A DNA stretch of 64,000 nucleotides from NCBI GenBank assembly GCA_019359505.1, contig JAHHHD010000020.1:1-64000 (forward strand), in the 5' to 3' direction. This stretch comes from Drouetiella hepatica Uher 2000/2452. GTDB lineage: Bacteria; Cyanobacteriota; Cyanobacteriia; Elainellales; Elainellaceae. Every line of letters starts with the position of its first letter. Position 1 is the first letter of the stretch. Of the stretch, positions 1,161-3,662 are shown one piece after another. Both the position numbers and the translations under genes were made by a program. The notes beneath the pieces are model-generated. The model had not been told where the DNA came from. It made no database searches and saw only the letters and a program-made list of their open reading frames with translations.

Positions 1161-1223
1161 TGACGGGTTGGGGTGGATGAGTGGATGAGAGTTTCCCATC
1201 CACTCATCCACCCCAACCCGTCA
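1161..1223. terminator. Perfect 27-bp inverted repeat
   Basis: Bases 1161-1187 are the exact reverse complement of 1197-1223, with a 9-base loop AGAGTTTCC. The arm includes GGGTTGGGGTGGATGAG. It lies just downstream of the photolyase-domain genes, so it could end their transcript, although no U-run follows. Similar GGTGGATGAGTG words recur at 20195-20380. Confidence 0.6.
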
Positions 1224-1241: not shown

Positions 1242-1655
1242 CTAGACCGTCAACCACGATCGCTCATGCTTTCTCCAGTAGCGAGAGAAACGGCGCGGCG
1301 AAGAATGATCCGTGACAGGAAAGATTTCTGGATAGGTTACTAAATCGATCGATTTTTGAAGTTCATTTTGCCAGCCTTTAATCATGTGATTGGGAGTTTC
1401 AGTCGTCACCACTTCACTGATTGCCAGGTCTTTTATGAGCTGCAACAGAACTGCAACCGTTTCACCCTTATAAATTTGAATGGATGGAATTTCTAATAAC
1501 GCTTCATAAATAAACTGAATGCGATGTTTCGCAATATTCTGCGCCTGCAAATAAGGCGCATCAAACACATAAACTTTGGGAGCATCAGCATAGTCTTTGA
1601 CCATCTGATGTTCGGGATTTAGACTATCTTCGTTAAACCAGATTAGAGAAGGCAT
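1242..1655 (-). CDS. Photolyase N-terminal alpha/beta-domain-like protein
   Basis: A 137-residue protein resembling only the N-terminal Rossmann-like domain of photolyases and cryptochromes. It begins PSLIWFNEDSLN (compare the usual LVWFRxDLRxxDN), has a VYVFD strand near residue 28 and an R-x-x-F-I-Y-E-A-L helix, and then the strand-loop IYKGETVAVL that matches the family's RxGxPxxVL. The charged R-x-D-L-R motif of true photolyases is eroded. It lies 34 bases downstream of a gene for the FAD-binding C-terminal domain, so the two halves are separate genes in reversed order and probably cotranscribed. They may form a two-subunit photolyase-like flavoprotein. Activity cannot be judged. The start is ATG at 1655, without a clear Shine-Dalgarno. 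Confidence 0.65.
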   Translation of the reverse strand: MPSLIWFNEDSLNPEHQMVKDYADAPKVYVFDAPYLQAQNIAKHRIQFIYEALLEIPSIQIYKGETVAVLLQLIKDLAISEVVTTETPNHMIKGWQNELQKSIDLVTYPEIFPVTDHSSPRRFSRYWRKHERSWLTV

Positions 1656-1689
1656 AGGAGAGACTTAAGGCTAGATGTGCTAATGCAGA

Positions 1690-2517
1690 CTACTGATACT
1701 GTCCAGGCGATCGCCCGCTCGGTTCCGGCATGTAAGCCCCCTCAAACAATCGTTCTGCCAACTCTTCATAAGAGTAATTAAAGGGATCGCCCTGTTTTGG
1801 ATCACCCGGCAGGAGGGAACCAGCATAGCGTTCTAAATTCTCTCGATTAAAAATGTATGGCTTGGTAGAAAAAGTCGAGGCTACCCACTGCCAGGACAGA
1901 TGATTGCTCGCAAAATCGCCATCAATCAGCAGACTATACATCCAGTCGGCTCCGGCTCTCCAGGACACCTTGCGGAAGTGAACGACATAGCTGGCTAAGT
2001 ACATACGGGCGTGGTTATGCAGATACCCTGTCTCTTTCAGCATATGAATCAGGGTATCCATTGAGGGAATGCCCGTCGTGCCAGCGGCAATGTCTTCAGG
2101 CAGCGATCGCTGATGCTGATTCATCGGCACTTTGGGTTTCTCCATATCCTTGAGAATGCGATCGCCCTCTTCTTCATACACCAGATGGAAGAACGCCCGC
2201 CATGCCAATTCTGAAACAAACGCCTCGACCGACTTGGAGCGTGACTGTTTCAATGCCCATTGCCGCAGTTCCTCTAGCTCCAAACATCCCCGGCTGACAT
2301 AGGGCGACAGCTGGCTGACTTCGCCATCCAGAAAGTTTCGCTGCTTGCCGTATTTCTCTAGCCGAAAGCTTTGCAGCCGAACCAGCCCTGCTGTTCTGCC
2401 TCCCACATGGGGTGAAAGCTCTCCCGAATCTTCTACAAAAGGAAACTCAGATTGCAGATAGGTGGCGATCGCCTCGCGGTCGGCTAACTCTAAGTCAGTG
2501 CGTAGCTGCTGCATCAT
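1690..2517 (-). CDS. Photolyase-type FAD-binding domain protein
   Basis: A 275-residue protein made of the all-helical FAD-binding domain of the photolyase/cryptochrome family. Recognisable blocks are FVSELAWRAFFHLVY (family: F-x-R-E-L-x-W-R-x-F-Y), GIPSMDTLIHMLKETGYLHN, the RMYLASY helix, and the FAD-contacting LLIDGDFASNHLSWQW followed by STKPYIFN. It lacks the N-terminal antenna domain; a separate gene for such a domain follows 34 bases downstream. Without that domain it could act as a flavoprotein DNA-repair or light-sensing subunit. The open frame extends to a TTG at 2532, but ATG codons at 2517 and 2514 are likelier starts. Family membership is clear; the function (CPD, 6-4 or other) is not. 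Confidence 0.82.
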   Translation of the reverse strand: MMQQLRTDLELADREAIATYLQSEFPFVEDSGELSPHVGGRTAGLVRLQSFRLEKYGKQRNFLDGEVSQLSPYVSRGCLELEELRQWALKQSRSKSVEAFVSELAWRAFFHLVYEEEGDRILKDMEKPKVPMNQHQRSLPEDIAAGTTGIPSMDTLIHMLKETGYLHNHARMYLASYVVHFRKVSWRAGADWMYSLLIDGDFASNHLSWQWVASTFSTKPYIFNRENLERYAGSLLPGDPKQGDPFNYSYEELAERLFEGAYMPEPSGRSPGQYQ

Positions 2518-3577: not shown

Positions 3578-3662
3578 AGTGGTAACAGTATTTTAGATAA
3601 GGATTTTTAGCGGTATGGGCTTTGCCCATACCGCTAAAAATCCTTACCTCTTAAGGACGACC
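3578..3662. repeat. Palindromic repeat family A, copy 3 (inverted)
   Basis: A hairpin at 3598-3646 with arm TAAGGATTTTTAGCGGTATG and a TTT loop region. Its right flank, CTCTTAAGGACGACC, is the reverse complement of the left flank of copies 1 and 2, so this copy is inverted. The inner arm (CGGTATGGGC) differs from copy 2 (TGGCGTGGGC), but both arms changed together. It lies between the secreted-protein gene and the convergent fasciclin gene, where it could end both transcripts. Confidence 0.8.

Follow-up and report, generated by a model that had tools for sequence, protein, structure and literature searches.

A split photolyase-like gene pair without Fe-S cysteines in Drouetiella hepatica, and the mutual exclusion of split photolyase pairs and cry-DASH in sampled Cyanobacteriia

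The gene pair and its surroundings

The window, that is, the whole stretch of 64,000 nucleotides of Drouetiella hepatica Uher 2000/2452 analyzed here (contig JAHHHD010000020.1), carries two adjacent minus-strand genes corresponding to the two halves of a photolyase. The phr4-like gene (1690..2517) runs from an ATG at 2517 to a TAG at 1692-1690 and encodes a short photolyase catalytic (FAD) subunit of 275 aa, in an Fe-S-free form. It is followed by an intergenic gap of 34 nt (1656..1689), the length of which differs among relatives (3 nt in locus L121, for example), and by the phr5-like gene (1242..1655), which runs from an ATG at 1655 to a TAG at 1244-1242 and encodes, as a separate chain of 137 aa, a relative of the photolyase N-terminal alpha/beta domain. 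A preliminary description of this DNA had reported adjacent photolyase halves 34 bases apart with the C-terminal half first, and we confirm both open reading frames (ORFs) and their order, on the minus strand. If translation began at a TTG further upstream, at 2532, the phr4 product would have 280 aa; the ATG at 2517 is the likelier start because same-clade relatives begin with M-x-x-L-R-T-D or close to it.

Purifying selection acts on both genes where dS is measurable. The dN/dS values are 0.070, 0.062 and 0.066 for phr4, where three of seven comparisons allowed dS to be computed and the last of these was near saturation, and 0.065 and 0.077 for phr5 (two of seven). Starting 18 nt beyond the phr5 stop codon, a 30-nt inverted repeat with 97% complementarity (1161..1223) is a possible end-of-operon hairpin.

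A palindromic hairpin element (TAAGGATTTTT..., both arms) is present in three copies at 826-876, 2605-2653 and 3595-3649, two of which flank the pair, one on each side. These are its only mismatch-free copies in the 64 kb, all within the first 3.7 kb, and four more sites appear when two mismatches are allowed. Nearer the contig start, a minus-strand ORF of 127 aa (122-505), resembling the N-terminal part of a 2-isopropylmalate synthase as judged by eye, terminates at a stop codon close to the first base of the contig and represents either a truncated gene or an assembly edge.

The FAD half keeps the repair-site residues

The 275-aa protein matches the Pfam family FAD_binding_7 (PF03441) with an E-value of 9.3e-27 and 94.2 bits (cut-off 27). 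The match covers only positions 1-126 of the 203 in the profile, leaving the C-terminal third unmatched, and the alignment with class I photolyases of known structure begins near residue 172. Against the cry-DASH profile TIGR02765 it scores 99.8 bits, under the cut-off of 317.05, and is therefore not assigned to cry-DASH. By alignment columns, E103, W106, N168, W186, D199, D201, N205 and W209 are present in all eight rows of the clade to which the window belongs, and M172 in seven of the eight. They align with the same residues of the host genome's own class I enzyme, and in class I CPD enzymes these residues line the repair site and the FAD. We take their E. coli counterparts to be E274, W277, N341, D372, D374, N378 and W382, with W359 for W186 and M345 for M172.

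Two features count against the reading that we favor below. In the column of E. coli R342, 42/42 Phr4-like rows shown have a histidine, and the window clade lacks a tryptophan corresponding to E. coli W306, where the alignment is gappy. In addition, positions 110, 173 and 181 are F, Y and F in 8/8 window-clade rows, whereas all three are W in 15/15 cyanobacterial rows of the Fe-S kind.

The small protein as a relative of the photolyase N-terminal domain

By itself, the 137-aa protein matches PF00875 with an E-value of 0.016, under the Pfam cut-off, and a single-sequence search of the PDB gave nothing convincing (best E 0.044, ribosomal proteins). When it was searched as a profile with 27 relatives, the five PDB matches under E 0.1 were all photolyases or cryptochromes (E 0.0012-0.089), and unrelated proteins started at E 0.25. 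Within this Phr5 family, 26 of 28 members match PF00875 (best 2e-7) and 9 of 28 match Usp (best 0.0025). Aligned by hhalign with 31 standard photolyase N-domain sequences, the family gives a probability of 96.8% over 142 columns and an E-value of 2.5e-10, which refers to that single comparison; the alignment reaches the C-terminal end, where RFSRYW of Phr5 lies near YTPFWRNW of the photolyases.

AlphaFold2 predicts an alpha/beta fold for the 137-aa protein with a mean pLDDT of 86, the block means for residues 111-137 being 52-62. The top Foldseek match of this model is the Thermus photolyase (E 3.0e-4). Universal stress protein (USP) rows appear from rank 4, interleaved with photolyases at similar E-values, with a query-length TM-score of 0.46 versus 0.66. 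In VIA-align 2 the top row is E. coli photolyase (1dnp), at Z 13.0 with an rmsd of 6.3 over 131, followed by Rhodobacter CryB, at Z 12.6 with an rmsd of 2.1 over 110; among the 50 rows shown, the best non-photolyase is a USP domain (Z 10.2, rmsd 2.6 over 105). The preliminary description had asked whether another Rossmann family aligns better. The nearest such rival, Usp, is weaker by Pfam, by TM-score and by VIA-align 2 Z-score, and was rejected. By profile and predicted fold, the 137-aa protein fits the photolyase N-terminal alpha/beta domain best.

The R-x-D-L-R motif, described earlier as lost from this protein, is indeed missing in all 28 aligned Phr5 proteins. Where the host class I photolyase has HRRDLR, they carry, for example, NEDSL or HGDCL.

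The two chains occur together in Cyanobacteriota

The arrangement belongs to a kind of pair already in print. In Haney et al. 2022 (PMC9426592), phr4 and phr5 of marine Synechococcus are neighboring ORFs that encode the FAD and photolyase domains in inverted order, phr6 is their fused form in two Cyanobium strains, and Nostoc punctiforme has the same phr4/phr5 gene set. Like these, the window has the FAD half and the N-like half as separate genes with the FAD half first, and both proteins are homologous to other cyanobacterial ones, including the Nostoc punctiforme pair (L163). Its gap of 34 nt differs from the 7 bp given in that text.

To analyze the distribution of the two genes, 292 Cyanobacteriota genomes were searched, counting Phr5 at E <= 0.001 and the short FAD half at more than 100 bits, a threshold of our own. 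Phr5 was found in 57 genomes and the short FAD half in 59, and the FAD half is present in 57/57 genomes with Phr5. The two genomes with Phr4 only carry the FAD half inside a longer single chain: in G270 a single open frame of 582 codons encodes the FAD half and then Phr5, a natural fusion, and in G026 it shares a chain with a Z-like C-terminal part. In 39 of the 57 genomes the genes lie on the same strand within 2 kb, with the FAD half first in all. The remaining 18 pairs were not found linked: eight are on different contigs, which may reflect assembly breaks, and ten share a contig at a distance of more than 400 kb, so that Phr4 and Phr5 must be separate chains at least there. In the genome G042 (L027/L054/L097), an in-frame TAA lies near the C-terminal end of the FAD-half gene, either a mutation or a sequencing error.

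Programmed frameshifting, an idea of Haney et al., was rejected as a general rule on the basis of the variable gap and the ten widely separated pairs, and no conserved frameshift signal was seen between the genes, the gap length varying among window-clade relatives.

Related pairs also occur outside the phylum. Among the best 80 of 564 relatives from a scan of 84,980 species genomes, pairs are found under the record labels Chloroflexi or Anaerolineae, Bryobacter, Thermomicrobiales, Alphaproteobacteria and a Tatlockia MAG (many of the records being MAGs). Deinococcus plasmids carry the FAD half fused to a following Phr5 (AJ005, D. wulumuqiensis, D. psychrotolerans) or the halves split (QL22). 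One pattern scan of viral_contigs, sensitive to close relatives only, found no viral relatives.

One possible explanation is that the halves act apart, the FAD chain being a complete SPL-like photolyase and the small protein having a different role that needs no partner. SPL enzymes are described as CPD enzymes without the N-terminal domain (Xu et al. 2021, as cited in PMC9178010, PMC9649867, PMC9498864 and PMC13274461), an example being SePhrC of Synechococcus elongatus (PMC9178010), which we infer to be of the same kind as the window FAD half. The latter is likewise a chain without an N-terminal alpha/beta domain of its own, and the 18 genomes in which linkage was not found, ten of them with the genes far apart on one contig, would fit independent action. 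However, the window encodes in a second gene the very domain that SPL enzymes are said in those papers to lack, the 57/57 co-occurrence includes the ten distant pairs, and natural fusions, in G270 and on the Deinococcus plasmids, join the halves in the same order. We therefore consider separate action unlikely.

An Fe-S-free clade of the pair

According to PMC9426592, four Fe-S cysteines are found in all Phr4 and Phr6 proteins, and a (6-4) photolyase is proposed. We counted these sites by alignment columns. In a 59-row alignment, cysteine occupies the four columns in 55-56 rows and is absent from all four in the window, G229 and G026; in G241 the C-terminal end is disrupted and two Fe-S cysteines are missing. 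In a 68-row set of our choosing, 8/8 window-clade rows have none of the four, whereas all four are present in 15/15 other cyanobacterial rows, 10/10 rows of other pairs and 4/4 Deinococcus rows. The six rows of fused FAD+Z proteins have at most one of the four in register. Pairs labelled alphaproteobacterial have four Fe-S cysteines in one case of eight and the first only in the other seven (L149, L166, L175, L185, L200, L202 and L208), the site being absent there too.

The window clade, as sampled, comprises 11 genomes, ten of them in one family. Nine come from the survey of 388 Cyanobacteriia genomes, where they match the window Phr5 at 58-91% (identity then drops sharply, the remainder of the 85 pair-bearing genomes matching at 36% or less), and are joined by G229 (65%, from the 292-genome search) and the window itself. 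Nine clade loci examined together are all adjacent, with the FAD half first and without Fe-S cysteines as read from the sequences. The pair is uninterrupted in 10/11 clade genomes, the exception being G492 (68% complete), where the frame of the FAD half is interrupted. Among the matches listed, FACHB-471, Leptolyngbyaceae RM1_406_9 and an uncultured cyanobacterium are 79-91% identical in the FAD half. Compared with the Fe-S kind, the window Phr4 is 41-49% identical (well-aligned full-length matches) and the window Phr5 about 25-36%.

Because the Fe-S cysteines are missing, we file the window pair as a variant and not as a plain member of Phr4/Phr5. The arrangement is real, conserved and already described; what is new is the Fe-S-free form and the exclusivity, reported below, in the genomes sampled from the class. 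The Fe-S-free split pair is apparently undescribed, and in the open-licence literature we found no account of a split or Fe-S-free pair other than PMC9426592.

Inverted single-chain photolyases and the position of the clade

A further known system with the FAD half first is Phr7/NewPHL, in which the FAD domain is followed by a Z-domain (Emmerich et al. 2020, as cited in PMC9426592 and PMC13274461). These are described as single-chain inverted ssDNA CPD photolyases, Phr7 being without the Fe-S cysteines (PMC9426592, PMC13274461), whereas the window pair has two chains. The statement in the preliminary description that normal photolyases are one chain with the N-domain first has to be qualified accordingly, as Phr6 and Phr7/NewPHL are published exceptions to the N-first order.

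The Z-domain of the Burkholderiales kind of NewPHL is weakly related to Phr5 by hhalign (53%, E 1.4e-4), and that of the Prochlorococcus/alphaproteobacterial kind gave no hhalign match to Phr5; a kinship of Z-domain and Phr5 is only suggestive. Five fused proteins labelled Burkholderiales (L152, L181, L186, L188 and L197), which look like the Phr7/NewPHL kind, are 47-51% identical to the window in the FAD half, among the matches listed. Their C-terminal domain, and that of L087 in the Cyanobacteriota genome G026, may be a diverged Phr5.

In a first tree of 68 rows, the window clade stands beside the fused Burkholderiales FAD+Z proteins (97/88, bootstrap not settled), and the Prochlorococcus-type Phr7 falls elsewhere. 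After removal of long branches (9/68 rows: L002, L117, L125, L128 and five Phr7), the outgroup joins the tree within the window clade, which may or may not be a rooting artefact. Holding all pairs together without the fused FAD+Z proteins is not rejected (p-AU 0.154). A secure sister relationship of the window clade and FAD+Z was dropped, as the pruned tree shifts and tests of the competing topologies do not tell them apart (p-AU 0.154, 0.573 and 0.5). Fe-S may have been lost in the window clade or gained elsewhere.

Mutual exclusion of the pair and cry-DASH

To compare distributions, we scored the pair by Phr5 at E <= 1e-6 and cry-DASH by scores over the TIGR02765 cut-off in 388 Cyanobacteriia genomes. 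The two sets, of 388 each under the same settings, were taken as the same genomes, the second having none beyond the first. The pair is present in 85 genomes and cry-DASH in 224, with an overlap of 0 against 49 expected, and none of the 160 genera has both. Fisher p-values are 7e-40 by genome and 3e-15 by genus, neither corrected for descent, and lineages cluster. Two families (f1 and f18) contain both kinds, in different genera. In the window family (36 genomes), ten genomes have the pair, 22 have cry-DASH, none has both and four have neither, three of these being 69-78% complete. The exclusivity applies to the genomes sampled.

In PMC9426592, the "fourth member" in picocyanobacteria is one of phr8 (a cry-DASH-type gene), phr4/phr5 or phr7, and cry-DASH is described there, with reference to Selby and Sancar 2006, as repairing CPDs in single-stranded DNA. 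Taken with this reported activity, the mutual exclusion makes the job of cry-DASH the most likely role of the pair. The distribution is the strongest hint to its function. The two systems would share the role of ssDNA CPD repair, and the FAD half has the similarity to the cry-DASH profile noted above; they differ in that cry-DASH is one chain with the N-domain first.

For the one-chain form this argument may have been anticipated: the abstract of the original NewPHL paper reportedly describes NewPHL as taking the place of DASH-type photolyases in bacteria.

Proposed function and alternatives

The best reading of the pair is a two-subunit flavoprotein, one of the two possibilities raised in the preliminary description. 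We then propose that it is probably one photolyase in two chains, with CPD as substrate, likely in ssDNA, standing in for cry-DASH. The 275-aa chain would hold the FAD and the lesion-binding site, and the 137-aa alpha/beta chain, of the antenna type, would dock on it and may cap or stabilize the FAD site. Blue or UV-A light would excite the reduced FAD, from which an electron would pass to the pyrimidine dimer. The substrate would most likely be CPD in single-stranded DNA, an activity that we infer from the repair-site residues together with the distribution. The complex, its FAD content, its substrate and ssDNA preference, and an antenna on the small chain are all predictions. An AlphaFold2 model of the fused L197 with five sequences has a mean pLDDT of 44.9 and a pTM of 0.38, too low for an interface to be read.

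In marine Synechococcus, disruption of phr4 lowers UV-C survival 20-30 fold, with a UV-B effect that was not measurable, and phr4/phr5 in E. coli gives UV-C protection with very little effect after UV-B (PMC9426592). This in vivo UV protection is that of the marine homologue.

A two-subunit (6-4) photolyase, as Haney et al. propose, would accommodate these observations, namely a marine mutant sensitive to UV-C and not to the UV-B dose used, and a pair that guards E. coli against UV-C and very little against UV-B (PMC9426592). The main sequence argument for it is the four Fe-S cysteines. As the window clade has 0/4 of them, that argument cannot hold there, although the UV-C result still allows a (6-4) enzyme. 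Moreover, the repair-site residues are those of the host class I enzyme, and the distribution of the pair mirrors that of cry-DASH, a ssDNA CPD photolyase according to PMC9426592. We consider a (6-4) activity of the window pair rather improbable.

A cryptochrome-like light sensor, the other possibility raised earlier, or a flavoprotein without repair could explain why the window clade has F, Y and F in place of three tryptophans and is missing the Fe-S ligands, as electron transfer may differ there. We found no support for this idea: the repair-site residues are kept intact, dN/dS is low, the marine homologues protect against UV-C (PMC9426592), and the sampled genomes with the pair have no cry-DASH. 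A sensor is very unlikely. That the pair is a degrading remnant or an assembly artefact, as might be suspected from a window beginning at the first base of its contig and from the interrupted FAD-half ORF of the incomplete G492, is scarcely credible given dN/dS values of 0.06-0.08 for both genes where measurable, indicating purifying selection, and an uninterrupted pair in 10/11 clade genomes.

If the pair is one photolyase in two chains, the photolyase alpha/beta domain can act as a separate subunit, and the pair would be a natural system in which to ask for the role of the domain (antenna, FAD capping or stability) by omitting it. As none of the 388 genomes has both the pair and cry-DASH, the two are predicted to be interchangeable in function, and the Fe-S-free clade takes away the sequence argument for the (6-4) naming. 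The view that short photolyases lacking the N-domain are ancestral is affected too, as the sampled cyanobacteria encode the domain in another gene. It is tempting to speculate, at somewhat less than even confidence, that an Fe-S-free obligate two-subunit photolyase, with its alpha/beta domain supplied in trans, replaced cry-DASH in one cyanobacterial lineage, so that "short" photolyases have this domain separately, and that NewPHL descends from such a pair.

Further photolyase-like genes of the host

The host genome contains two further photolyase-like genes with the N-domain and the FAD domain in one frame, of 479 and 566 aa. At the position of the FAD-contacting N of class I enzymes, the 566-aa frame (C57:73241-74587; L002, L004) has D. 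Frames of 554-617 aa similar to L002/L004 are found in many genomes of the family and score far under the cry-DASH cut-off.
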